64,000 nt of DNA from Halobacterium rubrum (GCF_021729015.1 NZ_JAJQQZ010000001.1:372001-436000); one strand, 5' to 3'; shown: positions 5,647-51,775, counted from the first letter of the stretch. Numbers and translations are program-made. The notes: generated from the sequence alone by a model not told the origin.

Positions 5647-5665
5647 GAGAAAACTACCAGCAGCA

Positions 5666-8781: not shown

Positions 8782-8786
8782 ATTAG

Positions 8787-11282: not shown

Positions 11283-11284
11283 CG

Positions 11285-11962: not shown

Positions 11963-11963
11963 C

Positions 11964-13111: not shown

Positions 13112-13127
13112 GTGTGGCCCTCCGGCG

Positions 13128-14703: not shown

Positions 14704-14802
14704 TGCGCTCCTATCCGAGCCCCGGCCCGTTTGTACGAATGCGGCTTAGATAGCGCGAGAAGGCGCGGGCAGGCAGGTAGAGGCGTCGGGTCCCGCTGGG
14801 TG

Positions 14803-14961
14803 TCAGCGGCGGTTCTGCTGGTGCCAGTCGGCCATCAGCTCGGCGAGCGTCTCCGCGTTGCCGGGCTCGAAGCCCTTCCGGTCGGCCATCTCTGCCTTGA
14901 TTTCGCGGAACAGTTCAGCCTTGTCGCCGTACAGCGTGACTGATTCGCTCGGTTTCGCCAT
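14803..14961 (-). CDS. 52-aa hypothetical protein after the packaging ATPase
   Basis: ATG 14961 begins MAKPSESVTLYGDKAELFRE; the product ends ELMADWHQQNRR. It is helical and hydrophilic. The opening resembles haloarchaeal small proteins of the type 'SVTLYGDKAERFxEIKxE', which are frequent in plasmids and viruses. It starts one base after the ATPase stop, so it is in the same transcript. Confidence 0.5.
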   Translation of the reverse strand: MAKPSESVTLYGDKAELFREIKAEMADRKGFEPGNAETLAELMADWHQQNRR

Positions 14962-14962
14962 C

Positions 14963-15790: not shown

Positions 15791-15793
15791 GGC

Positions 15794-16087
15794 TTACTCG
15801 CCCTCCTCCGCGTCCTCGACAGCTTCGACGTCGATGACCTGCGTGCCGGAGAGTTCGAGGTCGCGGCCGTGCCACCGCCGAATCGTCACGGGCTGACCGT
15901 CCTCGAGACGCCGCAGGGCGTCCTCGTTGAGGGTCACGGACTGCTCGGTCGGCTCCCGGGTGGGCTCGCTGCTGGCGGTGAGCGACCGGACGATCTCGAA
16001 GACCGCCATCAGGGTGACGAACGCCGTGAAGGCGTACGCCAGCTCGTCGGCGATGCCGTCGGCGTCGAAGCCGTCGGTGTAGGTCAC
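15794..16087 (-). CDS. Membrane protein, hypothetical (virion block)
   Basis: 97 aa. One or two hydrophobic helices near the N-terminus (ADELAYAFTAFVTLMAVFEI) precede a soluble domain with several short strands (QSVTLNEDALRRLEDGQPVT, TQVIDVEAVEDAEEGE). It overlaps the preceding gene by 4 nt and is followed 3 nt later by the packaging ATPase. Possibly a membrane-anchored partner of the ATPase. Confidence 0.5.
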   Translation of the reverse strand: MTYTDGFDADGIADELAYAFTAFVTLMAVFEIVRSLTASSEPTREPTEQSVTLNEDALRRLEDGQPVTIRRWHGRDLELSGTQVIDVEAVEDAEEGE

Positions 16088-16671
16088 GCCGACCCCTCCA
16101 TGTCATCGGCGACGGCGGTCATCACGGCCTCGACGGTGCGGAGGTTCGTGGTGAGGACGTCCTGAATGGCCTCGCCGGGGCGGAAGTCGACGACGTTCTG
16201 GCGGAACTCCTCAAGGGGGACGCCGAAGGTGTTCTCGACGTGCAGCGCCGCCAGTTCGTCGTCGCTGTAGGCGTCGGCCTCCGGGGAGGTGCTGCGGTAG
16301 TTCTGGGCCCACGCCTGCTTCTGAGCCTGCCACTCGTCGTCGTTCAGGCCGGCGTAGGGCTTCGCCCGGGCCGGTTCGTCGAGGTAGTCGGGGGCGAACT
16401 CCTCGAAGTACCAGCCGACGAGGTCGGCCTGACTGGCACGCTCGGCCATCGTTTCGAGCTGGGCGGCCCGTTCCTCGACGTCGGGCAGTTCGTCGACGGA
16501 GACGTCGGCGTCGCTGGCGTCGGCGAGGCGCTGGGCGAGCTGGAGCTGGGCGCGCTCCCGCTGGGCGACGACCTGCGAGAGGGCTTGCATCTGGGGGCGG
16601 AACTGGTCGAACAGCTGTGCGCCGGTCGCTTCGGTCATCTGCGCTTTCGCTGCGCTGAGTGGGTTAACCAT
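16084..16671 (-). CDS. Helical hypothetical protein (virion block)
   Basis: 195 aa from ATG 16671 (MVNPLSAAKAQMTEATGAQL). Predicted almost entirely helical with a coiled-coil-like first half (QALSQVVAQRERAQLQLAQR), then DDEWQAQKQAWAQNYRS and an acidic end DDMEGSA. No membrane segment. Overlaps neighbours at both ends. It may be an internal structural or assembly protein; not recognised. Confidence 0.5.
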   Translation of the reverse strand: MVNPLSAAKAQMTEATGAQLFDQFRPQMQALSQVVAQRERAQLQLAQRLADASDADVSVDELPDVEERAAQLETMAERASQADLVGWYFEEFAPDYLDEPARAKPYAGLNDDEWQAQKQAWAQNYRSTSPEADAYSDDELAALHVENTFGVPLEEFRQNVVDFRPGEAIQDVLTTNLRTVEAVMTAVADDMEGSA

Positions 16672-17203
16672 CGTCCTGCTGGAGCTTCGAGACTGCCTTG
16701 TTTGGGAGGTCGGTGCGACTGACGAGAACGGTGGCGCAGAGGGCGGCGGTGGCGACGAGCATCCCCTGTGCGGGGTCCATCTCGGCCTTGCCCTGCTGGG
16801 CCATCCAGTCGTTGACGTACTCGTCGAGGTGGAGATCGCGGGCCAGCGACTCGTCGATGTGGTCGGCGTCCTCGTCGCCGTACTCGTCGATGACGGCATT
16901 CAGGCCGGTGGTGACGGTGCCGACGTAGAGGTCGCCCCAGTCGGTCGTGCCCGTCTCGGCTGCCGGCACTGGGGCGCTGCCGTCGCTCGCGTCGGCCTGC
17001 TCGGGCTTGTCGGCGTCCTCCTGGTCGTCGTCGGCGTCGGCGCCGGCCTCCTCCTCGACCTGCTCGGCGAGGTCGGCGAGCCCGCCCATGTCGGCCCGCT
17101 CGTCGGGGTCGATGTCGGGCTGCTCCTCGCCGCCCTCGTTCTCCTCGGTTTCGGCTGCTTCGCGCTGCTCTTCGGCGCCTTCTGCCTGCTGCTGGTCGGT
17201 CAT
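16664..17203 (-). CDS. Acidic protein with C-terminal membrane segment (virion block)
   Basis: 179 aa. The first 85 residues are a very acidic Glu/Asp/Gln-rich linker (PDIDPDERADMGGLADLAEQ). A folded part follows (WGDLYVGTVTTGLNAVIDEY) and then one transmembrane helix (GMLVATAALCATVLVS) with a short basic end. It overlaps both neighbours. The build resembles the next upstream gene (long acidic linker plus one membrane helix), so both may sit on the internal virion membrane. Confidence 0.5.
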   Translation of the reverse strand: MTDQQQAEGAEEQREAAETEENEGGEEQPDIDPDERADMGGLADLAEQVEEEAGADADDDQEDADKPEQADASDGSAPVPAAETGTTDWGDLYVGTVTTGLNAVIDEYGDEDADHIDESLARDLHLDEYVNDWMAQQGKAEMDPAQGMLVATAALCATVLVSRTDLPNKAVSKLQQDDG

Positions 17204-17859
17204 TCCCAGAGGTCCTCCGTATCGCCGCTGCTCGACTGGTCACCGGTGGTCTCCTCTTCCTCATCGACAGGCGTCTCGGCGGTGCCTGCGGCCGATGTGG
17301 GGCCGTCGTCGGTGTCGTGGATGACGACGTAGTAGACGACTGCCGCGACCGCGACAGCGCCGACAACGAGCAGGACGGTGCGGGTTGAGGGCGCTGGGAG
17401 GCCGCTGCCCTCGTCGGCTGTACCCGATTGCTCGCCGTCGCTAGGCGAATCGCCAGACGACTCGCCTTCGTCGCTGCTCTCCGCCTGCTGTTCCTGCTGC
17501 TGTTGCTCGTACTCCTCTGGTGTAGCCATCTCAGAGCCGTCTTCCGCCTGCTCTGAAGGCGAAGATTCGGCGCCTTCAGACTGCTCTCCGTCCTGTTCTC
17601 CCTCTCCGTCGTCGGAGCCGTCGGTAGCAGCGCCTTCAGGGGGTGTTTCGACCTGCTCCGAAGGCGAGGTTTCGGCTGCTTCGGCCTGCTCTCCGGCGCC
17701 TTCTCCCTGCTCTTCTTCGCCCTGGGCGTGAACCTCGGGCTTGAGGGTGTTCCAGTCGTGGCCCTCGCTGGTCTCGGCGTTGATGTGCGAGCGCACGCTC
17801 GCCAGCGACGCGCCACCGCCGTAGTCGCAGACCGGGCACCAGTGTGGTTGCTTGCTCAT
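17200..17859 (-). CDS. Zinc-finger, acidic-linker, membrane protein (virion block)
   Basis: 219 aa from ATG 17859. The N-terminus is a C2H2-like zinc finger (CPVCDYGGGASLASVRSHIN, then a second His). A 110-residue Glu/Gln/Ser-rich linker follows, carrying two copies of SPSEQ(V/A)E and then a Gln tract. A transmembrane helix (TVLLVVGAVAVAAVVYYVVI) and an acidic tail end the protein. The order suggests a protein that links the genome or a partner to the virion membrane. The upstream open frame beyond 17859 is not used. Confidence 0.55.
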   Translation of the reverse strand: MSKQPHWCPVCDYGGGASLASVRSHINAETSEGHDWNTLKPEVHAQGEEEQGEGAGEQAEAAETSPSEQVETPPEGAATDGSDDGEGEQDGEQSEGAESSPSEQAEDGSEMATPEEYEQQQQEQQAESSDEGESSGDSPSDGEQSGTADEGSGLPAPSTRTVLLVVGAVAVAAVVYYVVIHDTDDGPTSAAGTAETPVDEEEETTGDQSSSGDTEDLWE

Positions 17860-18692
17860 GTAGTGTTCTGCCGCTCTGTGTGGCCCTCGGCGTCGTGGGC
17901 GGTGTCGCCCTCGGCCGCGAGCCGGTCGCTTAGTTCTTCGAGTCGTTCCAGTTCGATGGGTTCCTGGCCGTGGTCGGCGCGAATCGCGTTGATGGCGGCG
18001 GCCGCCTGCTCGGCGTTCTGTTTTGCCTCCAGAGCGTCGTCGAGTTCCGCTGCGAGCCGGGCGATGGCGGCCTTGTAGCCCTGCCACGCCCGCCCGAGTG
18101 CGCCGGCGGCCTCGCCCTCGATCTCCTGCTCGGTGCTGGCGTCGGCGTCGTCGAGGATGCTGGCTACCTCCTCGTCGTCGTAGCCGCACGCCTCGCTGAG
18201 AAACTCGCAGGCGTCGGGGTCGCCGTGCTGGCAGTGGTCGCGGGCGTGGTCGCACTCCTCGCCCATTGCCTTCTCCGCGCGGCCGAGGCGGTCGTCGGCC
18301 GAGTCTTCGGCGTCGAGGCGGCGGCCACCACCGCCGTCACGGGCGGCTCGCTCGGCGAGGTCGCGGTGTTCGTCGACGGTCAGCGTCTCGTCGTAGTAGC
18401 TCGTCCAGTCGTCGACGCCCTCCTCGCGGAAGATCGCCTTCGCGGCGGCCGCCTTCCGGTACGAGTTGTCACCCGTGAAGGGGCCGAGCCGGTCTTTCTC
18501 GGCATCGGTCAGCTCAATCTGGCCGGCACCGCTCGCGCGCTCGCTCCGGCCGCTCGCGGCCTCGACGTGCGCCCGGTCCAGCACGTGCTCGGGCGGGTCC
18601 GACACGAGCGCCACGGTCTTCCGGCGCTTGTCGTCGTCGACGGGACAGACGTACTCCTCGTAGTCATCTCTGAAGGCGTTGGCCGCCTGCAT
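17856..18692 (-). CDS. Hypothetical protein, first gene of the virion block
   Basis: 278 aa from ATG 18692 (MQAANAFRDDYEEYVCPVDD); a TTG at 18761 is a weaker start. Features are a Cys/His-rich centre (EECDHARDHCQHGDPDACEF) that may bind zinc, and a helical C-terminus (KQNAEQAAAAINAIRADHGQ). It begins the run of overlapping structural genes. The 147-nt gap to the rightward AbrB-like gene probably holds promoters for both. Not recognised. Confidence 0.5.
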   Translation of the reverse strand: MQAANAFRDDYEEYVCPVDDDKRRKTVALVSDPPEHVLDRAHVEAASGRSERASGAGQIELTDAEKDRLGPFTGDNSYRKAAAAKAIFREEGVDDWTSYYDETLTVDEHRDLAERAARDGGGGRRLDAEDSADDRLGRAEKAMGEECDHARDHCQHGDPDACEFLSEACGYDDEEVASILDDADASTEQEIEGEAAGALGRAWQGYKAAIARLAAELDDALEAKQNAEQAAAAINAIRADHGQEPIELERLEELSDRLAAEGDTAHDAEGHTERQNTT

Positions 18693-18839
18693 GGAACCGA
18701 ACTCTACAGTCTCACTCAGGGGTAGGTCACCTCGACGGAGAAACAGGCGCGAGACGCGCAAAGCGACCCGGAATACTGGGGTCTGACTAAAGTCTCGGCA
18801 ACGTTTAACGGGTTACCGGGCTACGAGGAAACTGTAGTC

Positions 18840-19094
18840 ATGGCGATGAACCAGTTGGTGTCCATCGGCGGTACGTCAGCGGGCGTCTCGCTGCCGCTGG
18901 ACGAGCTTCGCGACGAAGGTGTTGTATCGGGCGGTCGGGGCGGCGAACCGCTCGAGATCGAGGAGACGATGCTGCGGGTCGAGCGCTTCGACCGCGGCGC
19001 CTGGCAGGTCGTCCGGACCGACGTCCACGACTTTCCGGCGTACATGGAGGAACCAGCGTTCTGCCAGCAGGCAGAACCGACAGTCAGCGCGTAG
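18840..19094 (+). CDS. AbrB/SpoVT-like small regulator (tentative)
   Basis: 84 aa. The opening QLVSIGGTSAGVSLPLDELR resembles the swapped-hairpin DNA-binding motif of AbrB-like proteins (ValxxIGGSxGVxLPxxxL). TTTAAC at 18804-18809, 31-36 nt before the ATG, fits a leaderless promoter. It is transcribed opposite to the structural block and may control it. It overlaps the convergent gene's 3' end by 11 nt. Confidence 0.5.
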   Translation: MAMNQLVSIGGTSAGVSLPLDELRDEGVVSGGRGGEPLEIEETMLRVERFDRGAWQVVRTDVHDFPAYMEEPAFCQQAEPTVSA

Positions 19095-19530
19095 CAGCCT
19101 GACGTTCGCCCCACTCACGGAAAACGGAATTCCGATGTACGCACCAGAGTGCTCGCCGAGCAGCCTCGCTGTCCGGAGTCACATCGATTAGTCCATCCGT
19201 CTTTTCAACCATCACCCAGTAGCCGTCACCCACCTTCTTCCCGTCTTCAGCGCTTACAACGATTGCTGGAAGTGGTGGATCGTCGAGTCGATCCTCGTGT
19301 ATGCCGAGAAATCCCAGCAGAACGCCGCGACGTGTCGGGTGAATGCCGCAGTTCGAGGACACATCTCCGTAGGTAACCTCTCGCTCGTCGCTAGCTGCAC
19401 GAACGAGGTAGGTCTTGAGCGTCTCTACCTTCTGGACCAGAGTTTCAAACTCGTTGTACGGGTTCGTCATCAAACCCTCGTCGGCAATTGACCGAAGTTC
19501 TTCTCGGTCGATCTTGGACGCCGATGTCAT
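19084..19530 (-). CDS. Hypothetical protein with MGMT-type helix-turn-helix look
   Basis: 148 aa. An N-terminal helix (NEFETLVQKVETLKTYLVRA) leads to EVTYGDVSSNCGIHPTRRGV, then PPLPAIVVSAEDGKKVGDGY. The order 'TYGDVS...xR.GxxL...LPAIVV...G.xGDGYW' resembles the winged-helix unit shared by alkyltransferase-like and several virus- or defence-linked proteins. No catalytic PCHR motif is present. It is moderately AT-richer than its neighbours. Function unknown. Confidence 0.5.
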   Translation of the reverse strand: MTSASKIDREELRSIADEGLMTNPYNEFETLVQKVETLKTYLVRAASDEREVTYGDVSSNCGIHPTRRGVLLGFLGIHEDRLDDPPLPAIVVSAEDGKKVGDGYWVMVEKTDGLIDVTPDSEAARRALWCVHRNSVFREWGERQAATR

Positions 19531-19584
19531 ATTCGACCCGCCAACGTGGCTTCAGAAAGTTAGACGCCTGCTTCGGTGCTGGTC

Positions 19585-19986
19585 TTACCGTACGCGGATG
19601 TGCGGCTGGTTGACCGGGTCGCCGGTCCGCGTGAGGTAGCCGCGTTCGTTCAGCGGCTTCAGGACCCGTCGCGGGACGCTCTCTTTCGGGAGGTTGAGCT
19701 TCGACGCCAGCACGCTCCGTGCTTCTGTCAGCGGGAGCGACCGGCCGTCGGTCGTCAGCCGGCGAAGCTCCTTGTAGGCGGCCGCGAGCGTGTCGTCGTC
19801 CTCTGGCGGGACGAGCCCACCGTCGGTCGTCGGCGTCGAGACGGTCTTCCGCATGTGCTGGCGGATTGCTTCGCTGCGGTTGGTGTCCTGGTCGTCGAGG
19901 ATGTCGTCGTACTCCTCGAGGAGGTCGGCCGGCACGCGGACGGTGACGCGCTGGGTGTTGGACTCGTCGCTCTCCATGCGCCCCAT
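19585..19986 (-). CDS. Ribbon-helix-helix plus winged-helix regulator
   Basis: 133 aa from ATG 19986 (MGRMESDESNTQRVTVRVPA); ATG 19977 is also possible. Residues 10-50 form a CopG/Arc-like ribbon-helix-helix (RVTVRVPADLLEEYDDILDD, then NRSEAIRQHMRK). A C-terminal winged helix follows (LTEARSVLASKLNLPKESVP, then VLKPLNERGYLTRTG). Two DNA-binding modules in one small protein suggest a dedicated viral regulator. The 148-nt gap to its right holds no gene I can support. Confidence 0.65.
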   Translation of the reverse strand: MGRMESDESNTQRVTVRVPADLLEEYDDILDDQDTNRSEAIRQHMRKTVSTPTTDGGLVPPEDDDTLAAAYKELRRLTTDGRSLPLTEARSVLASKLNLPKESVPRRVLKPLNERGYLTRTGDPVNQPHIRVR

Positions 19987-20869: not shown

Positions 20870-20942
20870 TGGGACCGCCCGAATTTGAATCGGGGTCACG
20901 GGCACCCAAGGCCCGAAGGATACCAAGCTACCCTACGGTCCC
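20870..20942 (-). tRNA. tRNA-Pro (anticodon UGG)
   Basis: A full cloverleaf can be drawn on the minus strand. The acceptor stem GGGACCG (20936-20942) pairs with CGGTCCC (20871-20877), and the discriminator A is at 20870. The anticodon stem CGGGC/GCCCG closes the loop CTTGGGT, giving anticodon TGG. The T arm is CCCGATTCAAATTCGGG-like. No intron. The provirus abuts the 3' end, so this gene is the likely attachment site. Confidence 0.95.
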
Positions 20943-29833: not shown

Positions 29834-31876
29834 TCAGCCCTGTCGGTGCTCGAGCTCGTGGCGTGCGCTCTTTCGAACGAACTCCGCCGTCGGCTCGGAC
29901 TCACCCCGATAGGGAGTCCCGTTCAGGCGGAGCGTACGAGTGTCGTCTTCGAGCGCATCGACGACGTCCTCGGTGGTGTACGTCGACGACTCGGGCGCGC
30001 TCGTGCCGGCGAGAAAGTAGACGTCGTCGACGGACTCGGTGTTCACGCGAGCCACACTCCCGAGCGGGTTCGTCTCTGTTGCGGGCAGGCTCCGATGGAC
30101 GACGTGCTCGTCGCGGGAAACAGACTCGACGTCGGTCGTCGTGGCGAACATGCCGTCAGCCCGCCGGACGAGGGTGGCCACCGGACTGCCGAAGAACTGG
30201 TGCGGCGAATCGAGGCCGGCGAGGTCCGCGCTCCACGGAAGCGTGTGGCTGGCTACCAGTGGCGCCACCAGGTGAACGACGCTACTCGGCGAGAGCCGGC
30301 CGTCTGCGGTCAGACCGGCGAGTGTCCCGTTCTCACAGAGGCGTCTCTGTGCGGACGGCGAGAGCGAGCACCCGAACATGACGACCGACGGCCACGAGTC
30401 GGCTGCGTCCTCGATTTCTGCGTCGGAGACGGCTCCGTCGGCGTCAGTCCCGGGCTCGCAGTAGAGGAAGTCGGGGTCGGCGTCGAGCACGCGACCGAGT
30501 GCGTCCGGCGTCGCGTTGTCGGCGACGACTGTGGTCGCGTCGCGGACCTGTGGCTTCCGGGCCGCGTCCAGAGACGATCGAAGCGCGTCCGCTCGGTCGC
30601 TGTCCCCGAGCACGAACCCAAGCGTCACGTCTTCGGGGACCGGGAGCTGTCGCTCCCGCTGCGCGACGAACGCTTCGGGGACGAGTCGCGTCCACCCCGG
30701 CGGCACCTCGTCGGTGGTCGTCGCGGCTCCGAGCTCCCGAATCGCCGGGTCAGTCACCCAGTCCGGGTCCGCTGACGTGTCACCACTGGCGACGCGAATC
30801 GGCGCGAGCTCGTTCGCGAGCGACGACAGCAACGCGGCGTCCTCGACGCGCGGCCGAAGTGTCGCGGTGCAGGGCCACGCGGGCCGCAGACCGTCTACGC
30901 TGGCCGGGTCGACTTCGAGGTACTCGAGGAGTTGGACGGCGAGTGGCTCGCCGTGGAGGTTCGGCGGATAGAACGGGAGTTCGGGAGCGACGAGGTCGTA
31001 CTCCCGGCGGCGAAACGAGTAGTACCCCCCGATTCGGACGAGCGAATCGAAGAACAGTGCCCGGCTCAGTACGGACGCGACGTGTTCACCGGGGGACCGC
31101 TCGGGTGTCTCCAGCGGTTCGCTGTACCCGTTGTCCAGGTGGAGCGCTGGGCTGTCACCGATTTCGAGCGTGGCCCCGAAGTAGAACGCGAGCGGTACGA
31201 CGGGGTAGACGTACTCGTACTCGGCGGGCACCTCGATGGTGACACCCGTGTCGGGCTTCGACAGCTGCGACGGTACGTCGAGTTCGTCGCTCGGGCGAAT
31301 CGCTGGCGGGTGGCCCCGGAGTGTCGGCCAGGAGCGCTCGCTGGTGAACTCCTTGACCGAGGACCCGAGATAGGAGACGGCCTCCGCCACCGCAGCCGGG
31401 TCGTCTGGCACATCGATAGTCGCCTCTGGACGCGTGTGCTTGGACCGCGCACCGATAGTCACAGTCGTCTCGTCGTCGAATTCGACTGTCGCTGCGGCCG
31501 TGTCCAACGCACTCGACTCGTACCTCGCGGTGAACGCGGCGTCCCGGACCCGCAGGTACGTTTTCGTGCTCCCGGCGAGCTCGAGGAAGTACGTTCCGCC
31601 TTCGAACCGCCTGGGTTCGGAGGTGAGCCCACCCAGATGGTCGCCGTCGCTGTCCCGAACGAGCACCTTCGTGCTCGGGTCGATTCGGACCCGCGTCGTC
31701 GTCACCGAGACGGCGGCGTCGACGGGAAAGACGAATAGGTCCGTGATGGCGGGCGTGACGTCCACACCCGCGTCCACGCCGAGCTGGATGTCACTGGACT
31801 CGACCCCGTCGGTGACGCGCACCGTCCCCTCGGCTGCGTCCGCGACGAACGACACCAGCCCGCCGTCCGAATTCAT
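29834..31876 (-). CDS. CHAT-family paralogue lacking the catalytic His (pseudo-protease)
   Basis: 680 aa from ATG 31876, almost the same length as the three tandem CHAT proteins at 45.0-51.3 kb. Clear shared blocks include SWPTLRGHPPA, TGVTIEVPAEYEYVYPVVPL and FYFGATLE. In the C-terminal domain the segment DFLYCEPGTDADG replaces DFLHFVGHVTERG, so the catalytic His is a Gly (about residue 476). MFGCSLSPSAQR keeps the Cys (C503). The downstream LVAPLVASHT and FGSPVATLVRRADG follow the family pattern. It should be inactive as a His/Cys protease. It is divergent from the SF1 helicase gene 103 nt away. The frame stays open far upstream, but only as antisense of that helicase. Confidence 0.8.
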   Translation of the reverse strand: MNSDGGLVSFVADAAEGTVRVTDGVESSDIQLGVDAGVDVTPAITDLFVFPVDAAVSVTTTRVRIDPSTKVLVRDSDGDHLGGLTSEPRRFEGGTYFLELAGSTKTYLRVRDAAFTARYESSALDTAAATVEFDDETTVTIGARSKHTRPEATIDVPDDPAAVAEAVSYLGSSVKEFTSERSWPTLRGHPPAIRPSDELDVPSQLSKPDTGVTIEVPAEYEYVYPVVPLAFYFGATLEIGDSPALHLDNGYSEPLETPERSPGEHVASVLSRALFFDSLVRIGGYYSFRRREYDLVAPELPFYPPNLHGEPLAVQLLEYLEVDPASVDGLRPAWPCTATLRPRVEDAALLSSLANELAPIRVASGDTSADPDWVTDPAIRELGAATTTDEVPPGWTRLVPEAFVAQRERQLPVPEDVTLGFVLGDSDRADALRSSLDAARKPQVRDATTVVADNATPDALGRVLDADPDFLYCEPGTDADGAVSDAEIEDAADSWPSVVMFGCSLSPSAQRRLCENGTLAGLTADGRLSPSSVVHLVAPLVASHTLPWSADLAGLDSPHQFFGSPVATLVRRADGMFATTTDVESVSRDEHVVHRSLPATETNPLGSVARVNTESVDDVYFLAGTSAPESSTYTTEDVVDALEDDTRTLRLNGTPYRGESEPTAEFVRKSARHELEHRQG

Positions 31877-31978: not shown

Positions 31979-34240
31979 ATGACCGACGGCGACGCGCCCG
32001 ACGCGACACCACTGTACGAGGAGTGGTCGCTGCACGGCGCCGACCGGTACGCGACCGACGACCTCCGGGCGCTCAGCCGCTACCTCGGCCTCGAAGGTGA
32101 CGACCTGCGCGCGTGCCTGAATCAGGCCGCTGACGTGGTCGACGTCCCCGCCGAGGACGGCCGGGGGCTGGTCGTGCCGCTGCACGGCGAGGACACGCCG
32201 GCGCCGACCAGCGAGTACGTCGTCTGGGACGCCGACGCGGACGCAGTCGGCTACTTCGACGAGACCTTCGGCATCAGCGGCACGAACAGCCGGGCGCCTC
32301 TCGACGACGTGGTCGCCACCGAAATCGCCCACCGGGTGCGGTTCTGGCACCCTGACCACGCTCCCGACAGCGACGCGGACGCCGCCGCCGCCGACCCGCT
32401 GGGGGGCGCCGACGTGCCAGACGCGATTCGCGCCAGCGACCCGCTCGCCGGCCGCGACCGCCGCGCGTTCTTCGACGCCCTCCGCGAGACTGTCCGGGGC
32501 GAGCGGACGGCCGAGCGCGACCAGACCCGCGACGCGCACGCCGACGCCGACCTCGGCCAGCTCGTCGGCGAGCGCGCCGTCGACGGCCCGTTCGTGCTCG
32601 TGTCGACGACCGCCCAGTCCGACCGGCCGGCGGACGTGCGCGTCCAGTACGCGCCCGAGGACGGCGGCGCGCCGGCGGACGTCGACCTCGTCGCCGCCTT
32701 CGACCTCTACCCGGACAACCGCGTGCTCGTCGACGCGTTCCACGGCGACTTCCCGTTCCCCGCCCGCGTCGCGAGCGTCGACGGCCCCCTCGTGACGCTC
32801 CGGCCCGCGTGGGAGCGCGTCGACGACCCCGAGCGCGTCGCCGCGGCGCTCGAGGACGCCGACCCGTTCTGGCTGCGCGGCCTCCTCAATCCCGTCCCGT
32901 ACGCTCGCCGGCTGGACGCCCTCGACGCGGTCTGGGAGACGCCGGCGAAGCGCCGGCTGCTCACAGGCGAGCGCGACCTGTCGTTCTCGCGGCCGCCGAA
33001 CCGCCGGCGCGCCGACCTCGCGCTCGACGACCACCAGCAGCGGGCGCTGGCGTGGGCGGTCGCCGCCGACGACGTGGTCTGCATCCACGGCCCGCCGGGA
33101 ACGGGGAAGACGCGGACGCTGGCCGCCGCCGTCGCCGAGTCTGTCGCGCGCGGCGAGCGCGTGCTCGTGACCGCCCACTCGAATCAGGCCGTCGACAACC
33201 TCCTCGTCGGCGACAGCACGCCCGACGAGGTCGACGACGGCTCCCTGCACGGCGTGCTCGGCGACAACCCTGAAGTCGACGTCGCGCGGTACGGCAGCCA
33301 CTCCCGGAACCGGGTGGTCGACGAGCACTACCGCCAGCGCGGCGTCGACTCGGCCGACGTGGTCGCAGCGACGACGAACGGTGCCGCCGCCTTCGACCAG
33401 GACGCCTTCGACGTCGCGGTCGTCGACGAGGCGACGCAGGCGTCCCGCGCCGCCACCGCCATCGCCGTGAACGCCGCCGAGACGCTCGTGCTCGCCGGCG
33501 ACCACCGCCAGCTCCCGCCCTACGGCGTCCGGGAGGGCGGGGCGGGCGAGATGCGGCCGTCGCTGTTCGAGACGCTGGTCGACCGCTACGGCGACGACGT
33601 CGCCGTCCTGCTCGCGCGCCAGTACCGGATGCACGACGCCATCGCCGGCTTCCCGGACGAGGCGTTCTACGGCGGCCGCCTCGAGACCGCCGCGGAGGCG
33701 GCCGACCGAACCGTCGATGGCCTCTCCGCCGTCGACCTGTTCGACGTCACGGGGGACGAGCGCCGGGAGGAGCGCGGCGCGAGCGTCCGGAACGCGGCGG
33801 AAGCGTCGGTCGTCGCCGACCGCGTCGAGACGCTCCTCGGCGTCGGCGTCGACCCGGGCGACGTGGGCGTCATCGCTGCGTACAGCGGACAGGTCTCCGA
33901 GATTCGGGGCGTGCTCGCCGACCGGGGCCTCGACCGGCCCGCGCTCACGGTCGACACCGTCGACTCCTTCCAGGGCGGCGAGCGCGAGGCCGTCGTCGTG
34001 TCGTTCGCGCGCAGCAACGACGCAAGCGACGCCGGCTTCCTCGAACACCCCGAGGAGGGGCCGCGCCGGCTGAACGTCGCGCTCACCCGGGCGCGCCGCC
34101 ACCTCTCGCTGGTCGGCGACTGGACGACGCTCACCGAACCGGCCAGCCACCGCAGCCCCGAGGAGAGCTGTGCGGCCGTCTACGCCGACCTCCACGACTC
34201 CCTCGCCGGCCACGCCGACGCCCGGCTGCACAGCCGGTAG
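31979..34240 (+). CDS. Superfamily 1 helicase (DNA2/UPF1/SMUBP-2-like)
   Basis: 753 aa. Motifs are in order: I (CIHGPPGTGKTRTLAAAVAE), Ia (VLVTAHSNQAVDNLL), II (VAVVDEATQASRAATAIAV, DEAT box), III (LVLAGDHRQLPPYG), IV (LLARQYRMHDAIAGFPDEAF), V (VDTVDSFQGGEREAVVVSFA) and VI (LNVALTRARRHLSLVGD). The N-terminal 330 residues are a beta-rich domain that may bind nucleic acid. It likely unwinds RNA or DNA. It is transcribed away from the CHAT pseudo-protease gene; the shared 102-nt gap probably holds both promoters. Confidence 0.92.
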   Translation: MTDGDAPDATPLYEEWSLHGADRYATDDLRALSRYLGLEGDDLRACLNQAADVVDVPAEDGRGLVVPLHGEDTPAPTSEYVVWDADADAVGYFDETFGISGTNSRAPLDDVVATEIAHRVRFWHPDHAPDSDADAAAADPLGGADVPDAIRASDPLAGRDRRAFFDALRETVRGERTAERDQTRDAHADADLGQLVGERAVDGPFVLVSTTAQSDRPADVRVQYAPEDGGAPADVDLVAAFDLYPDNRVLVDAFHGDFPFPARVASVDGPLVTLRPAWERVDDPERVAAALEDADPFWLRGLLNPVPYARRLDALDAVWETPAKRRLLTGERDLSFSRPPNRRRADLALDDHQQRALAWAVAADDVVCIHGPPGTGKTRTLAAAVAESVARGERVLVTAHSNQAVDNLLVGDSTPDEVDDGSLHGVLGDNPEVDVARYGSHSRNRVVDEHYRQRGVDSADVVAATTNGAAAFDQDAFDVAVVDEATQASRAATAIAVNAAETLVLAGDHRQLPPYGVREGGAGEMRPSLFETLVDRYGDDVAVLLARQYRMHDAIAGFPDEAFYGGRLETAAEAADRTVDGLSAVDLFDVTGDERREERGASVRNAAEASVVADRVETLLGVGVDPGDVGVIAAYSGQVSEIRGVLADRGLDRPALTVDTVDSFQGGEREAVVVSFARSNDASDAGFLEHPEEGPRRLNVALTRARRHLSLVGDWTTLTEPASHRSPEESCAAVYADLHDSLAGHADARLHSR

Positions 34241-44097: not shown

Positions 44098-44883
44098 TCA
44101 TCCCCGCAGTCGGCCGCCGTCGACGGGCACGCTGGCGCCGTTCACGAAGCTCGCGCGGTCGCTCGCGAGGAACGCCACCACGTCGCCGAGTTCGCCGGGG
44201 TCGCCGACTCTGTCCAGCGGGATGTCGTCGCTCCAGGCCGCCAGTCCCGCCTCGTAGCTGTCGTACTCGCCGCGCTCGACGGACGCCGCCACGAGTTCCT
44301 CGATGCGCGGCGTCTCGTGGGCACCGGGCTGGACGACGTTCGCGCGCACCTCGGGCGCCCACTCGCGGGCGACGGTCTTCGCCAGCCCGACGACGCCCCG
44401 CCGGACGGCGTTCGACAGCACGAGCCCCTCGATGGGCTCGCTGACGCTCGTCGACGTGATGCAGGTGACGGTGCCGCCGTCGCCAGCGACGAGGTGCTCG
44501 TGGGCGGCGTCCAGCGTGCGCACGACGCTCATCACGAGCAGGTCGAACGCCTCGTACCAGTCCTGCTCGCTGGTCTCGAGGAACGGCCCGCTCGGCACGC
44601 CGCCCGCCGACGTGACGAGGTGGTCGAGTCCGCCGAACTCATCGACGGTCGCCTCCACGACCGCGTCCACGTCGTCGGGGTCGGTGATGTCGGCCGGGAC
44701 GGTGTGGACGTCGCCGGCTGCCCCGTCCCGGACGTCCTCGGCTGCCGCCTCGAGTCGGTCCGCGCTGCGCGAGCACAGCACCACATCGGCGCCCTCGCGC
44801 GCGAGCGCCGCCGCACTCGCCTTCCCGAGGCCGCTCGACGATGCCGTCACGAGCGCCGCGTCGCCGTCGAGTGTCAGGTCCAT
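44098..44883 (-). CDS. SDR-family protein with substituted catalytic Tyr/Lys
   Basis: 261 aa. The cofactor motif TASSSGLGKASAAALAREGA and the NAG-type TSAGGVPSGP are normal, as is the C-terminal FVNGASVPVDGGRLRG. The YxxxK pair is replaced: EGLVLSNAVRRGVVGLAKTV carries L154 and N158 where Tyr and Lys are expected. A subgroup of FabG-like SDRs with 'LxLSNxxR' exists; its members keep the fold but probably use another mechanism or act as binding proteins. It is transcribed away from the first CHAT gene, 123 nt away. Confidence 0.85.
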   Translation of the reverse strand: MDLTLDGDAALVTASSSGLGKASAAALAREGADVVLCSRSADRLEAAAEDVRDGAAGDVHTVPADITDPDDVDAVVEATVDEFGGLDHLVTSAGGVPSGPFLETSEQDWYEAFDLLVMSVVRTLDAAHEHLVAGDGGTVTCITSTSVSEPIEGLVLSNAVRRGVVGLAKTVAREWAPEVRANVVQPGAHETPRIEELVAASVERGEYDSYEAGLAAWSDDIPLDRVGDPGELGDVVAFLASDRASFVNGASVPVDGGRLRG

Positions 44884-45006: not shown

Positions 45007-47061
45007 GTGACGATACACTTCGACGTCGCGCCCGACGACGCCGGCGCCCGGACGCTCCGCGTGCGGGACACGACGGAGGCCGAGCGGTTCGACCTCCACG
45101 CCGACCGCGAACTATCGCCCGAGCAGGCGTCGACCGACGAGTTCTCGCGGCCCGTCGACGCGGCAGTGGTGCTAACAGTGGGAGAACTCCACTTTCCGCT
45201 CCACAACCCGGCGGTGTTCTTTCAGCAAGGGTCGGCAGTTCACCGGAGTGAGGACGAGGCGTCGAGCGAGTGGCTACAGCGGGGAACGTACGAGGTGGAC
45301 GTGCTCGTTCCAGCAGTAAAGACGTACGTGAAGGTGTGTGATGCCCGGGTTCGGGCACGGTTCGGGGACGGACACACCGTCCTCGAGGTCGACCCTGGAA
45401 CGAGACTCGTCGTGGGTGCGCGGTCGCACCACGAGCAGCCGGCGGGCACTGTCACGACGACCGAAGACCCGCGGGACGTGATGCGGGCGATTTCGACGTT
45501 CGGGTCGGCGCTGAAGACTCACTCTCCGGACCGGTCGTGGCCGACGCTGCGCGGACATCCGCCGGCGCTCGAACTCGGGTCGAGTCTCGAGGTGCCGGAC
45601 GCCGTCGCGCCGCCGGAGACAGGTGTGACCATCGAGGTGCCACCCGACTACGGGCCGATTTTCTCGGTGGCGCCGCTGGCGTACTACCTCGGCGCCACCG
45701 TCGAGCCGGGCAGTCGGCCCCGGCTCCACACTGAAGGAACAACGCACGAATTCGACCCGGACGCACTCGCCAGCGAGGTTGCCGACGTCCTCGAGCACTG
45801 TTTCGTGCTGGACGGAACTGTGCGGACTGCGGGTGTCTACCCGTACCGTCACGAGCAGGCCGACGTCGTCGACGAACGGACGAACCTCGACCACGAGCGG
45901 CTGTTCGAGCTACCGCTGGCAGAACGGACGGCCGCGTACCTCGACATCCCCCGCTCGGTCACCGCCGAGCTCCTGCGGTGGCACTTGACAGCTGACGTCT
46001 CCCCGGAGGCGCGCTACGCGGCGGCGCTGCCGCACCTCGTGAACGCGCTCACCGCCATTCGGAGTCCGCCACCGGAGCCGTCGCGCGTGGAGCGGGCGCC
46101 CGAGCCGAACGCGCTGGCGCGGTCGCTCGCGCAGGACCCCGACGACGCCACGACGTTCGTCCGCCCGCAGGACGCCGGCACCCCCGGACACGCCTGGGTC
46201 GGGGAGGGGTTCGCGGTGGAAGCGGCGAACCCGACGGTAGGGTCGTTTCGACGGGGGTTCGAGTGGCCGTCCGGCGAGGGGCCACTGGACGTCCACGTGG
46301 TGTACAACGACGAGCGGCTGGACGCCCCAGACGAGCTCGCCTACAGTGTCCACGAACTCGCGGACACGAGTGTCAGGGTGTCGGAGTCGCTGCCGACGGT
46401 GGAGTTGCGGGAGGCGTTGCTGGAGGACACCGACTTCCTGCACTTCGTGGGACACGTGACCGAGCGGGGGATGGTGTGTCCGGACGGGGAGCTGGACGTG
46501 CGGACGCTGCCGATGACCGGCGTGGGGGCGTTCTTCCTGAACGGGTGTCGCTCGTACGAGCAGGGGTTCGCGTTGCTGACGGCGGGGGCGGCGGGTGGTA
46601 TCGTCACCGTCGACGATGTCGAAGACGAGGTCGCCGGCGAGGTCGGGTATCAGGCGGCGATGTTGCTGGATGCCGGTTTCCCGCTGTACGCCGTACTGGA
46701 CGTGCTCGACCGGACTGAGGTCGACACGAGCCGGTACACCCTCCTCGGCGACCCAGCGCTCACGCTTCGGCGGAGTGCGAATGGCGTGGCGGACCTCTGG
46801 ACACCCGTAGCTGGTGGCGACAGCAACGCCGACGAGATCCAGTTCTCGTCGACGCTGTACCCGACTGGCGAGAACGGGCTCGGCAGTCTGTATTCGTTCA
46901 ACCACGGGTCAGGTCCGCCCTCTCTCGGGTCGGCGAGACAGACGTCATTCGTGCTGTCGAACGACGATCTTGCCGGGTTCGTGGAGAACCACGTATCACC
47001 GTTGCTCGTAGACGGCCGGCTCCAGCCAGCCAACTCGTTCACGGTCGACGACTTCCAGTAG
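45007..47061 (+). CDS. CHAT-domain (caspase-like) protease, tandem copy 1
   Basis: 684 aa from GTG 45007, aligned with the starts of copies 2 and 3. The first 170 residues are beta-rich; SWPTLRGHPPA is at 177-187, then TGVTIEVPPDYGPIFSVAPL. A linker (about 360-420) leads to the CHAT domain: FLHFVGHVTERGM with H483, FFLNGCRSYEQGF with C514, and LLTAGAAGGIVTVDDVEDEV, ending RYTLLGDPALTLRR. The His/Cys dyad is intact. After it, about 100 residues differ between copies and end LLVDGRLQPANSFTVDDFQ. CHAT proteases cut proteins in cell-death and defence pathways; here the target is unknown. No signal peptide. A TATA-like CTAAACA lies at 44941. Confidence 0.85.
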   Translation: MTIHFDVAPDDAGARTLRVRDTTEAERFDLHADRELSPEQASTDEFSRPVDAAVVLTVGELHFPLHNPAVFFQQGSAVHRSEDEASSEWLQRGTYEVDVLVPAVKTYVKVCDARVRARFGDGHTVLEVDPGTRLVVGARSHHEQPAGTVTTTEDPRDVMRAISTFGSALKTHSPDRSWPTLRGHPPALELGSSLEVPDAVAPPETGVTIEVPPDYGPIFSVAPLAYYLGATVEPGSRPRLHTEGTTHEFDPDALASEVADVLEHCFVLDGTVRTAGVYPYRHEQADVVDERTNLDHERLFELPLAERTAAYLDIPRSVTAELLRWHLTADVSPEARYAAALPHLVNALTAIRSPPPEPSRVERAPEPNALARSLAQDPDDATTFVRPQDAGTPGHAWVGEGFAVEAANPTVGSFRRGFEWPSGEGPLDVHVVYNDERLDAPDELAYSVHELADTSVRVSESLPTVELREALLEDTDFLHFVGHVTERGMVCPDGELDVRTLPMTGVGAFFLNGCRSYEQGFALLTAGAAGGIVTVDDVEDEVAGEVGYQAAMLLDAGFPLYAVLDVLDRTEVDTSRYTLLGDPALTLRRSANGVADLWTPVAGGDSNADEIQFSSTLYPTGENGLGSLYSFNHGSGPPSLGSARQTSFVLSNDDLAGFVENHVSPLLVDGRLQPANSFTVDDFQ

Positions 47062-47083
47062 GAGCACGCGCGGGTCTGACAAC

Positions 47084-47091
47084 GCTTATCC
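47084..47091 (+). promoter_or_regulatory. Promoter of CHAT copy 2
   Basis: GCTTATCC sits about 48 nt before the GTG. The block GGTCTGACAACGCTTATCCA is identical to the block before copy 3, as are the flanking bases and the last codons of copies 1 and 2. The unit was therefore duplicated with its promoter. Confidence 0.55.
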
Positions 47092-47135
47092 ACCCGTCGG
47101 CGACTACGTGGGGGGGAAGCAGCTACGAGGACAGC

Positions 47136-49181
47136 GTGACGATCCAGTTCGAAGTCGACGGTGACGGTCGGACGCTCCGAGTGGTAGACACTGCCGAGAG
47201 CGAGCGGTTCGACCTCCGCGCCGACCGCGAACTATCGCCCGAGCCGGCGTCGACCGACGAATTCGCGATGCCGGTGCAGGCCGCCGTCGGCATCGAGACC
47301 AGCGAACTCCACTTCCCGCTGTACCGGCCCGCCGTGTTCTTCGAGGACGGCGAGGCCGTCCACCGGACGGAGGACGAGGCGTCCAGCGAGTGGCTGGACC
47401 GGGGAACGTACGAGGTTGACGCGTCGCCGCCGGGCGCGAAGACGTACGTGAAGGTGTGTGACGCCCGAGTTCGGGCGCGCTTCGAGGACAACCACACCGT
47501 GCTCGACACCGAGTCGGCCACCCAGCTAGTCGTCGGTGTCCGGTCGCACCACGAGCAGCCGGCGGGGACAGTGACGGTGACAGACGACCCGCGGGACGTG
47601 ATGACGGCGGTTTCGACGTTCGGGTCGGCGCTGAAGACCCACTCTCCCGACCGGTCGTGGCCGACGCTGCGGGGCCACCCGCCGGCGCTCGAACTCGGGT
47701 CGAGTCTGGACGTTCCGGATGCTGTCGCACCGCCGGAGACGGGCGTGACCATCGAAGTGCCACCCGACTACGGGCCGATTTTCACGGTTGCACCGCTGGC
47801 GTACTACCTCGGTGCCACCGTCGAGCCCGGGTCGGAGCCGGCGCTCCACGCGGCCGGCCGGACGCAGTTCTTCGACGCGAACGACCTCGCCGCCGACGTG
47901 CAGGCGACGCTCGAACACCTGTTCGTGCTGGACGGGGTCGTCCGGACGGTCGGCGTCTTTCCGTTCCGGCACGAGCAGGCCGACCGCCTCGAGGAGCGCG
48001 TCGACCTCGACTACGAGCGGCTGTTCGAGTTGCCGCTGGACGAGCGGACTGCCGCCTACCTCGACGTGGCCCGTTCGGCGACCGAGGGGCTCGTCGGCTG
48101 GCACTCGACGGCGGACGTGGCGCCGGAGCCGCGGTACGTCGCGGCGCTGCCGCACCTCGTGACCGAGCTCACCGCGATTCGGAGCCCGCCGCCGGAGCCG
48201 TCGCGCGTGGAGCGGGCGCCCGAGCCGAACGCGCTGGCGCGGTCGCTCGCGCAGGACCGCGACGACGCCACGACGTTCGTCCGCCCGCAGGACGCCGGTA
48301 CCCCGGGGCACGCCTGGGTGGGTGAGGGGTTCGCGGTGGAGGCGGCGAACCCGACAGTGGGGTCGTTCCGGCGGGGGTTCGAGTGGCCGTCGGGCGAGGG
48401 GCCACTGGACGTCCACGTGGTGTACAACGACGAGCGGCTGGACGCCCCAGACGAACTCGCGTACGACGTGCACGAGACGGCCGACACCGACGTGCGGGTG
48501 TCGCAGTCGCTGACCACGGTGGAGTTGCGGGAGGCACTGCTGGAGGAGACGGACTTCCTGCACTTCGTGGGGCACGTCACGGAGCGGGGGATGGTGTGTC
48601 CGGACGGGGAACTGGACGTGCGGACGCTGCCGACAACGGGTGTAGGGGCGTTCTTCCTGAACGGGTGTCGCTCGTACGAGCAGGGGTTCGCACTGCTGAC
48701 GGCGGGGGCGGCGGGTGGCATCGTCACCGTCGACGACGTCGACGACGAGGTCGCTGGCCGGGTCGGCCGGGACGCCGCGCTGTTGCTGGATGCCGGTTTC
48801 CCGCTGTACGCCGTGCTGGACGTGATCGACCGCTCGGTCGCCGACGCGAGCCGGTACACCCTCCTCGGCGATCCGACGCTCGCACTCCGAAGGAGTGTGA
48901 ATCACGTGTCGACCCTCTGGACGCGTACCGCTACAGCCGAACCAGACGACGGTCGGACACAGTTCACGTCGACGCCGTATCCGCACGGCGAGAACGGGCT
49001 CGGCAGTCTCCTCTCTCGGCACTACGGTTCAGCGCCGACGTCCCTCACCTCCGCGAGTCCGACCAGCGTCGCGGTCTCGCCGGACGAACTCGCAGCACTC
49101 GTCGGGAACGAGCAGAGCCCACTGCTCGTCGACGGCGACCTTCGTCAGGCGAACGCGTTCTCTGTCGACGACTTCCAGTAG
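47136..49181 (+). CDS. CHAT-domain (caspase-like) protease, tandem copy 2
   Basis: 681 aa, GTG start at 47136 preceded by GAGGA. Order of parts as in copy 1: beta-rich N-terminus, SWPTLRGHPPA, TGVTIEVPPDYGPIFTVAPL, linker, CHAT domain with FVGH (H480) and NGCRSYEQG (C511). In the CHAT domain and the 40 codons before it (about 48.31-48.75 kb) the DNA is almost identical to copies 1 and 3, while residues 1-60 and the last 100 differ. This points to recent duplication or gene conversion of the catalytic part. It ends LLVDGDLRQANAFSVDDFQ. Confidence 0.85.
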   Translation: MTIQFEVDGDGRTLRVVDTAESERFDLRADRELSPEPASTDEFAMPVQAAVGIETSELHFPLYRPAVFFEDGEAVHRTEDEASSEWLDRGTYEVDASPPGAKTYVKVCDARVRARFEDNHTVLDTESATQLVVGVRSHHEQPAGTVTVTDDPRDVMTAVSTFGSALKTHSPDRSWPTLRGHPPALELGSSLDVPDAVAPPETGVTIEVPPDYGPIFTVAPLAYYLGATVEPGSEPALHAAGRTQFFDANDLAADVQATLEHLFVLDGVVRTVGVFPFRHEQADRLEERVDLDYERLFELPLDERTAAYLDVARSATEGLVGWHSTADVAPEPRYVAALPHLVTELTAIRSPPPEPSRVERAPEPNALARSLAQDRDDATTFVRPQDAGTPGHAWVGEGFAVEAANPTVGSFRRGFEWPSGEGPLDVHVVYNDERLDAPDELAYDVHETADTDVRVSQSLTTVELREALLEETDFLHFVGHVTERGMVCPDGELDVRTLPTTGVGAFFLNGCRSYEQGFALLTAGAAGGIVTVDDVDDEVAGRVGRDAALLLDAGFPLYAVLDVIDRSVADASRYTLLGDPTLALRRSVNHVSTLWTRTATAEPDDGRTQFTSTPYPHGENGLGSLLSRHYGSAPTSLTSASPTSVAVSPDELAALVGNEQSPLLVDGDLRQANAFSVDDFQ

Positions 49182-49204
49182 GAGCACGTCGCCGGTCTGA
49201 CAAC

Positions 49205-49212
49205 GCTTATCC
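49205..49212 (+). promoter_or_regulatory. Promoter of CHAT copy 3
   Basis: GCTTATCC lies about 48 nt before the GTG at 49257. The surrounding block of about 35 nt (49194-49230) matches 47073-47108 almost base for base. The copies can thus be transcribed separately. Confidence 0.55.
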
Positions 49213-49256
49213 ACCCGCCGGCGACTACGGACACGGAGGCAGTCCCGGGGGATTGC

Positions 49257-51308
49257 GTGACCATACAGTTCGACACGGACGACGACGGTCGGGCGCTCGA
49301 AGTCCGCGATACGACGGAGGGAGAGCAGTTCACGCTCCGCGCGGACCGCAAGGTCACGCCCGTCGCGGCGTCGACCGACGAGTTCGCGATGCCGGTGGAC
49401 GCCGCCGTCGCCGTCGAAGCCGGCGAGCTCCACTTCCCGGTGTACCGGCCGGCCGTCGTCATCGAGGACGGCGACGTCGTCGACCGCATCGAGGACGAGG
49501 CGTCCAGCGAGTGGCTACAGCGGGGCACCTACGAGGTGGACGCGTCGCCGCCGGGCGCGAAGACGTACGTGAAGGCGTGTGACGCCCGGGTCCGGGCGCG
49601 GTTCGTCGACGACCGCACTCGCCTCGACGTCGACCCGGCGACGAGACTCGTCGTCGGCGTGCGGTCGCACCACGAGCAGCCGGCGGGTACCGTCACGACG
49701 ACGGAGGACCCGCGGGACGTGATGCAGGCCGTCTCGACGTTCGGGTCGGCGCTGAAGACCCACTCTCCCGACCGGTCGTGGCCGACGCTGCGGGGCCACC
49801 CGCCGGCGCTCGAACTCGGGTCGAGTCTCGAGGTGCCGGACGCCGTCGAGCGGCCGGAGACCGGCGTCACTATCGAGGTGCCGCCGGCGTACGGGCCGAT
49901 TTTCACGGTGGCGCCGCTGGCGTACTACCTCGGCGCCACCCTCGAACCCGGGGCCGAACCTCGGCTCCGCGCGGCCGACACGACCCACGAGTTCGACCCG
50001 GACGCACTCGCCAGCGAGGTCGCCGACGTCCTCGAGCACTGCTTCGTGCTGGACGGTGTCGTCCGGACGGTCGGCATCTACCCCTTCCGACACGAGCAGG
50101 CCGACCGCCTCGAGGAGCGCGTCGACCTCGACTACGAGCGGCTGTTCGACCTCACCCTCGACGAGCGGACTGCCGCCTACCTCGACGTGCCCCGTTCGGC
50201 GACGGAGGGACTGGTCGGCTGGCACCTGACCGCCGACGTTGCGCCGGAACCCCGGTACGCGGCGGCACTTCCGTACGTCGTCGACGAACTCGCGGCCGTC
50301 CGGAGCCCGCCGCCGGAACCCCGGCCGGCAGCGCGCTCGCCGGAGCCGGACGCGCTCGCTCGCTCACAGGCCCGGACGTCCACGGCGTCGGCAGACGTGC
50401 TCGTGCCCGACCCGGTCGACACCCCGGGGCACGCCTGGGTCGGGGAGGGGTTCGCGGTGGAGGCGGCGAACCCGACGGTGGGGTCGTTCCGGCGGGGGTT
50501 CGAGTGGCCGTCCGGGGAGGGACCTCTGGACGTCCACGTGGTGTACAACGACGAGCGGCTGGACGCCCCGGACGAACTCGCCTACGACAACCACCCGACT
50601 GCGGAGACGAACGTGCAGGTGTCGCAGTCGCTGACCACGGTAGAGTTGCGGGAGGCGTTGCTGGAGGAGACGGACTTCCTGCACTTCGTTGGCCACGTGA
50701 CCGAGCGGGGAATGGTGTGTCCGGACGGGGAACTGGACGTGCGGACGCTGCCGATGACCGACGTCGGGGCGTTCTTCCTGAACGGGTGTCGGTCCTACGA
50801 GCAGGGGTTCGCGCTGCTGACGGCTGGAGCGGCGGGTGGCATCGTCACCGTCGACGACGTCGAAGACGAAGTCGCTGGTAAAATCGGGTATCAGGCGGCG
50901 ATGCTGCTGGACGCCGGCTACTCGCTGTACGCCGTGCTGGACGTCCTCGACCGGACCGGAGTCGACAGGAGTCGGTACACGGTTCTCGGCAGTCCCAGAC
51001 TCAAGCTACGTAGTACGACGGGTGTCGCGCTCCTCCGAGAATTCGACTCGTCCGATGTGGCGACGACCGACGGAGCTCTCCCAGTGCGTACCCACACGTA
51101 CCCTGAAAGGACGACCTCACTGGGTGGATACCTCACCACCAACTACGTCGATGCTGCCGATTCTCTGGTGTCTGCGGACCCCGTCGAGACAACAATCACG
51201 CGAGCAGAATTCGAACGGTACACCGACACTCAGCCCCTACCGACTCTCGTCGACGGCGACCTCGTCCTCAACACCGACCTCTCCCTCGAGGACTTCGACG
51301 GCGCCTAG
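49257..51308 (+). CDS. CHAT-domain (caspase-like) protease, tandem copy 3
   Basis: 683 aa, GTG start. It has the same domain order and an intact dyad, H480 (FLHFVGHVTERGM) and C511 (FFLNGCRSYEQGF). Differences from copies 1 and 2 are in the linker before the CHAT domain (RPAARSPEPDALARSQARTS, then VLVPDPVDTPGHAW) and in the C-terminal 100 residues, which end TLVDGDLVLNTDLSLEDFD. That tail keeps only the LVDGxL and DF positions. Different tails on a common protease suggest that each copy recognises another partner or signal. The stop overlaps the end of the convergent TRAM gene by 4 nt. Confidence 0.85.
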   Translation: MTIQFDTDDDGRALEVRDTTEGEQFTLRADRKVTPVAASTDEFAMPVDAAVAVEAGELHFPVYRPAVVIEDGDVVDRIEDEASSEWLQRGTYEVDASPPGAKTYVKACDARVRARFVDDRTRLDVDPATRLVVGVRSHHEQPAGTVTTTEDPRDVMQAVSTFGSALKTHSPDRSWPTLRGHPPALELGSSLEVPDAVERPETGVTIEVPPAYGPIFTVAPLAYYLGATLEPGAEPRLRAADTTHEFDPDALASEVADVLEHCFVLDGVVRTVGIYPFRHEQADRLEERVDLDYERLFDLTLDERTAAYLDVPRSATEGLVGWHLTADVAPEPRYAAALPYVVDELAAVRSPPPEPRPAARSPEPDALARSQARTSTASADVLVPDPVDTPGHAWVGEGFAVEAANPTVGSFRRGFEWPSGEGPLDVHVVYNDERLDAPDELAYDNHPTAETNVQVSQSLTTVELREALLEETDFLHFVGHVTERGMVCPDGELDVRTLPMTDVGAFFLNGCRSYEQGFALLTAGAAGGIVTVDDVEDEVAGKIGYQAAMLLDAGYSLYAVLDVLDRTGVDRSRYTVLGSPRLKLRSTTGVALLREFDSSDVATTDGALPVRTHTYPERTTSLGGYLTTNYVDAADSLVSADPVETTITRAEFERYTDTQPLPTLVDGDLVLNTDLSLEDFDGA

Positions 51309-51775
51309 TTGCCCCAGAAGTTGTCGCGGCTGCCCAGCCGCTCCATCGACCCATCGTCGTCGTCATCGTCGTCCTCGTCGCTGTCGTCGGCTTCGGCTGC
51401 CTCGTCGGCTGCCTCCTCGTCGTCCTCGTCGTCCTCCTTCTCGGGGAGTTTCTCGAGAAGGTCGGCGCGGGCGTAGTTCGGCTTCACCTTCGAGATCTCG
51501 GCTTTCACGCGGGCCGGCGGCAGCACGCCGTCGACCATCACGATGAACCCCGAGTCCTCCTGGCGGCCGACGCCGGCGCCGCTCTCGTGCATGTCGTCGA
51601 CCTCGATGACTACCTCCTGGCCGGGCACCACGGGCGCGGTCTTCAGGTCCTCGATGGGCTGGCTGTAGTGCTGGCACCACTCCATCCCGCCGCGGTCGCC
51701 GTAGTGCTGGCACCCCATTCCCTCTATCTGTTCCTGGAAGCTGGGGCACTCGTCGGCGAGGGGGCAGTCGGCCAT
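51305..51775 (-). CDS. TRAM-domain RNA-binding protein
   Basis: 156 aa. A Cys-rich N-terminus (CPLADECPSFQEQIEGMGCQ, then WCQHYS) may bind zinc. The TRAM beta-barrel follows at about residues 50-110 (VPGQEVVIEVDDMHESGAGV; FIVMVDGVLPPARVKAEISK). The C-terminus is a long Asp/Glu tract typical of haloarchaeal RNA-binding TRAM proteins, which are thought to act as RNA chaperones. It converges with CHAT copy 3. Confidence 0.85.
   Translation of the reverse strand: MADCPLADECPSFQEQIEGMGCQHYGDRGGMEWCQHYSQPIEDLKTAPVVPGQEVVIEVDDMHESGAGVGRQEDSGFIVMVDGVLPPARVKAEISKVKPNYARADLLEKLPEKEDDEDDEEAADEAAEADDSDEDDDDDDDGSMERLGSRDNFWGN

Follow-up and report, generated by a model that had tools for sequence, protein, structure and literature searches.

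A tandem array of predicted CHAT-fold cysteine proteases in Halobacterium and the class-wide haloarchaeal family to which it belongs

The CHAT proteases (PF12770), such as TPR-CHAT/Csx29, SAVED-CHAT, DdvA and HetF, have a clan CD fold in which the catalytic domain is C-terminal and the His and Cys come after successive strands. In TPR-CHAT/Csx29 (Craspase) this domain follows N-terminal TPR repeats and the locus is a type III-E CRISPR locus. Separases (C50) and gingipains (C25) have the clan CD fold as well, whilst the orthocaspases and pseudo-orthocaspases (p20, C14) are His/Cys dyad enzymes with dead paralogues. It was shown that orthocaspases cleave after basic (positively charged) residues, and in a survey of the p20 domain Archaea contributed no more than 93 sequences, with no pseudo-variants among them (PMC6426788). 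Clear caspase homologues were said to be missing from Archaea, although haloarchaeal extracts show strong caspase-like activity; in Haloferax volcanii extracts a high caspase-like (LEVD/IETD-cleaving) activity was found, which is inhibited by zVAD-FMK and was termed housekeeping, and for which no homologous gene was known (PMC3615174).

In this work we looked at a stretch of 64,000 nucleotides from Halobacterium rubrum (the window), which encodes three consecutive proteins predicted to have the C-terminal clan CD domain, with the His/Cys dyad and, in their family, the dead paralogues of the systems above. Unlike the PF12770 proteases, they have a beta-rich N-terminal part and a conserved middle domain, with no TPR or SAVED module found; no CRISPR genes were seen among the neighbours of the array, the family is paired with DUF7504 in many genomes, and only some of its members reach or approach the Pfam CHAT model. 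They differ from separase and gingipain in having no significant sequence match to them, in their surrounding domains and in the array showing no cohesin-cleavage context. In contrast to the p20 orthocaspases, the family occurs in 93% of the sampled Halobacteria and includes a dead clade; it was probably missed by the p20 survey (PMC6426788) because it is CHAT-like and not p20.

Two other gene groups were seen in the window. A restriction-modification-like group occupies 1592-6802: here 1592-3559 encodes a type II REase-like HATPase protein, 3552-4703 an Mrr-like nuclease and 5666-6802 a C5 cytosine methylase. Beside tRNA-Pro (20870-20942), a run of small minus-strand genes (~7568-19977) is, judging from its genes, a probable integrated provirus: the gene at 14963-15730 matches a terminase large subunit (phrog_2666) and that at 17856-18692 a head-related PHROG.

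The array and its predicted fold

The features of the array and its flanks, counted from the first letter of the window, are:

44098 to 44883, minus strand: SDR oxidoreductase, upstream flank, divergent from the array
45007 to 47061, plus strand: predicted CHAT-fold protease copy A, 684 aa, GTG start; approximate domain boundaries are N-terminal beta part 1-147, middle domain 148-360, linker 361-393, CHAT 394-590 and C-terminal part 591-684
46453 to 46455, plus strand: codon of the predicted catalytic His483 of copy A, after strand 475-481
46546 to 46548, plus strand: codon of the predicted catalytic Cys514 of copy A, after strand 506-512
47062 to 47135, plus strand: A-B spacer, a near-match to the B-C spacer, with GTCTGACAACGCTTATCCACCCG in common
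47136 to 49181, plus strand: predicted CHAT-fold protease copy B, 681 aa, H480/C511, GTG start
49182 to 49256, plus strand: B-C spacer, resembling the A-B spacer
49257 to 51308, plus strand: predicted CHAT-fold protease copy C, 683 aa, H480/C511, GTG start; its C-terminal part is the most divergent
51305 to 51775, minus strand: TRAM-domain protein, downstream flank, convergent; kept beside the array in the genus

An earlier note, made from the sequence alone, had described three tandem GTG-started genes of 684, 681 and 683 aa with intact dyads (H483/C514, H480/C511 and H480/C511) and a CHAT or caspase-like fold; the genes and the dyads are present as it described them, and the fold was recovered by structure prediction. 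The model of copy A, predicted in AlphaFold with an alignment of 61 sequences, has a pLDDT of 89.6 and a pTM of 0.90. All 27 Foldseek matches to the PDB at E<=1e-3 are SAVED-CHAT, TPR-CHAT, DdvA, separase or gingipain entries, or complexes containing them; SAVED-CHAT is matched at E 2.8e-6 and the separases are the next best structural matches after CHAT. The DdvA entry we take to be a CHAT protein. In the model the N-terminal part is beta-rich, and His483 and Cys514 each stand right after a strand, as in clan CD. The model opens with a beta strand and a hydrophobic leader helix is absent, which suggests that the array proteins are soluble and cytoplasmic.

Whole-protein scans of the three copies against Pfam, NCBIfam and PADLOC gave nothing usable, including no Pfam CHAT match, and the PHROGs scan of copy A gave no match. 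PDB sequence searches with the family, including the family profile, gave no real match. The Peptidase_C14 (p20) model did not match in Pfam scans of the array proteins and 61 members, and no SAVED domain was found in Pfam or PADLOC scans of the array proteins, nor any SAVED-only chain among the significant Foldseek matches. A paralogue elsewhere in the genome (L009, C1:1088853) matches Pfam CHAT PF12770 at 32.7-33.3 bits, above the cut-off of 24, and its alignment to copy A has an E value of 1e-52; within 61 family members PF12770 gives a weak match at E<=1 in 21, the best being 2e-5. The CHAT membership of the array proteins, which is well supported by the predicted structure, therefore rests on fold, transitive homology and motif, since no direct Pfam CHAT or PDB sequence match was obtained.

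Copy B is 78% and copy C 70% identical to copy A at the protein level. By codon comparison of the three copies, residues ~151-240 and ~391-540 have 90-100% protein identity in most 30-residue blocks, yet the copies differ at about one to two fifths of the fourfold-degenerate sites within the same core. Because these sites differ, the constancy of the core points to purifying selection and not merely to recent copying. Gene conversion was considered as the whole cause of the constant core and is ruled out by the same sites, with the exception of residues 361-390, where copies A and B share 89 of 90 bases with none of 19 fourfold sites differing; this block is likely to be a local gene-conversion tract. 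The similar spacers may possibly be a copied promoter. A constant core with diverging ends, as the earlier note had proposed, is thus borne out by the identity and codon comparisons. It had confined the variation to the N-terminal ~60 residues, the C-terminal ~100 and one linker; this stands for the C-terminal part and the linker, but residues 1-150 overall and 241-300 vary too. Between A and C, as few as 4-5 of 30 residues are identical at some points of the C-terminal parts.

The family, its chromosomal site and the loss of the dyad

The source genome has eight family members: the three of the array, a gene at 29834-31876 on the minus strand of the window, and L006, L007, L008 and L009. Since the alignment of these eight was too divergent, the search for loci was carried out with another alignment (A3), which gave 348 family loci in GTDB genomes. 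The conservation survey across Halobacteria that the earlier note had suggested shows at least one member in 273 of 294 genomes (93%) and in 69 of 78 genera, with exactly one in each of 15 Haloferax species (the genus being inferred from the pattern of single copies and from gene order shared with named Haloferax loci). Beyond the class, the phylum sample gave matches only in four genomes, all from one family. In the tandem array, one member of this class-wide family has undergone a lineage-specific multiplication. A tandem pair, with DUF7504 upstream of the first copy, was seen in Haladaptatus (L085 and L103), so tandem duplication recurs in the family. In L052, L053, L065, L095, L101, L104 and others, a metallo-beta-lactamase-like gene lies upstream (a weak match, below the cut-off), often with an unknown gene of ~137 aa downstream.

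The earlier note had regarded the system as apparently undescribed. RefSeq names the relatives carried on plasmids mostly as hypothetical, but it already labels one a 'caspase family protein' and another a 'CHAT domain-containing protein'. In the largely open-access literature that was searched, no paper on CHAT in haloarchaea or Halobacteria, or on DUF7504, was found.

The array site is syntenic across the genus, and in part also in Halarchaeum and Halospeciosus, with the TRAM-domain gene facing it downstream and genes of clusters 27, 31 and 32 upstream. Species have 1-3 copies at this site; duplication took place separately in two sublineages, and some of the copies in relatives are broken. 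One possible option is that the triplication is nearly neutral, a matter of dosage or of birth-and-death duplication with no functional division among the copies. This variable copy number, the separate duplications, the broken copies and the gene-conversion tract all fit such a process, but all three copies of the array are intact, their core is under purifying selection and the C-terminal parts of A and C have diverged strongly; we consider this option possible, though rather unlikely. The copies may each cut a different partner, as the earlier note had proposed.

Another hypothesis, raised in the earlier note, is a role in defence or cell death, by which the array would work in abortive infection like TPR-CHAT/Csx29 or SAVED-CHAT, with a protease that is activated by infection and kills or arrests the cell. 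SAVED-CHAT and TPR-CHAT are indeed among the closest solved folds, the tandem copies with their diverging ends look like the product of an arms race, and the copies vary in number and are sometimes broken. Yet the family is near-universal in the class, and the array occupies a chromosomal site of conserved synteny, among metabolic or housekeeping genes (SDR oxidoreductase, ArsP-like permease, radical SAM protein, DUF373). PADLOC gave no match for the three proteins or for the immediate neighbours tested, no defence gene was found beside the array, and phage records and viral contigs yielded no relatives. The evidence therefore speaks against this role, which we hold to be improbable. A viral origin of the family is likewise unsupported by the searches of phages and viral contigs, though 25 haloarchaeal plasmid records carry members.

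One member within the window was absent from the earlier note:

29834 to 31876, minus strand: pseudoprotease paralogue, 680 aa; catalytic His and Cys absent; N-terminal and middle domains and PTLRGHPP motif retained

In a tree of 120 proteins, built by a quick method with SH-aLRT as its only support, both dyad residues are present in 106, neither in 14 and a single one in none, and the dyad state changes 3 times. The His and Cys, which the earlier note had marked as a dyad, are thus kept or lost together. Eleven of the dead copies group in a single, fully supported clade, which includes the window member and its relative in another genome (G007); its exact placement is uncertain because of long branches. 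The dead relative in G007 is located near the array member of that genome, the same as in the window, and the dead copies retain the N-terminal half. It may be proposed that the CHAT domain is in practice no protease but a scaffold or binding module: a whole clade that keeps the N-terminal and middle domains without either catalytic residue indicates that some members work without catalysis. However, the joint presence of His and Cys in the 106 proteins, class-wide, is hard to explain without catalysis, which makes this reading very unlikely.

Two tandem members in a further genome (L139 in G022, 502-2628 and 2680-4068) have His changed to Glu/Gln and Cys to Asp with the surrounding motif kept, which looks like an independent loss of catalysis. 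In the window, an SF1 helicase (31979-34240, plus strand) with partial similarity to MkoA defence models is encoded divergently from the pseudoprotease, and G007 has a plus-strand gene of similar size in the same place.

The DUF7504 neighbour

At 37 of 83 loci the next gene upstream, in the same orientation, encodes DUF7504 (PF24336, E about 1e-51); this number is no count of independent events, because the surveyed loci are related by descent (12 of the surveyed loci are Haloferax). In 28 of the 37 the two genes overlap or lie at most 51 nt apart. The state of the neighbour changes 12 times on the tree, and the CHAT-DUF7504 pairs stand among many kinds of neighbouring genes, and also on a plasmid. 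With 13 DUF7504 matches in the source genome, chance adjacency would be well under 1%. In this genome only L008 (the C5 copy) was seen with a neighbouring DUF7504, which it overlaps by 4 nt; the array has none beside it, and DUF7504 therefore cannot be an obligatory adjacent partner.

The DUF7504 model (pLDDT 88.7) gives a structural match to KaiC CI at 7e-8, so that the protein is predicted to share the RecA/KaiC CI fold. Unlike KaiC, it has no recognisable Walker A motif: 20 of 22 sequences are without any GK[ST] in the first 90 residues, and in the remaining 2 a GK[ST] is present but outside a full P-loop motif. In Haloarcula, an 'upstream gene' of 142-199 aa (cluster 21) was judged a probable wrong-frame ORF.

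Proposed working and the orphan caspase-like activity

The explanation that we find reasonably probable is that these proteins are regulated intracellular CHAT cysteine proteases, found almost class-wide and multiplied in tandem in Halobacterium. The array would encode paralogous soluble cysteine proteases with a beta-rich N-terminal part, a conserved middle domain and a CHAT (clan CD, caspase/separase-like) domain. The N-terminal and middle domains, with their strongly conserved GSALKT-SPERS-PTLRGHPP segment, may keep the CHAT domain inactive and either take up a signal or bind a partner, which in many members could be the KaiC-fold DUF7504 protein, with no recognisable Walker A loop, from the adjacent upstream gene. 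Upon activation, the His/Cys dyad would cut a single target protein, or a few of them, in signalling or in the adaptation to stress, and the dead paralogues, which retain the sensing half, may serve as decoys or regulators. The tandem multiplication in Halobacterium would have started from one member, at a fixed chromosomal site, with the core kept and the ends diversified. As to the role, the best reading favours signalling or stress/housekeeping proteolysis over a phage-defence cassette.

A link to the haloarchaeal caspase-like activity that has no gene, which the earlier note had raised, is consistent with the published account (PMC3615174) and may be called an attractive possibility. The family may be the source of the LEVD/IETD-cleaving activity of Haloferax volcanii, a suggestion that is compatible with regulated intracellular proteases and adds a substrate preference. 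That activity is high, zVAD-FMK-inhibited, housekeeping and without a known homologous gene (PMC3615174), and every one of the 15 Haloferax species has its single member. On the other hand, since other prokaryotic caspase homologues, the orthocaspases, cut after basic residues (PMC6426788), Asp specificity is not the default expectation, and we regard the suggestion as tentative and on balance unlikely. The most far-reaching version, in which a near-universal haloarchaeal caspase-fold system, missed by standard caspase models and switched by a KaiC-fold pseudo-ATPase and dead paralogues, yields the orphan activity, we consider speculative and improbable.

The pairing with a KaiC-fold DUF7504 that has no recognisable P-loop, together with a deep dead clade, points to a regulated proteolytic circuit, no description of which was found in the largely open-access literature searched. 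The family supplies candidate genes for the orphan haloarchaeal caspase-like activity, and with a single copy in every Haloferax species examined, the question of this activity can be reduced to one gene.
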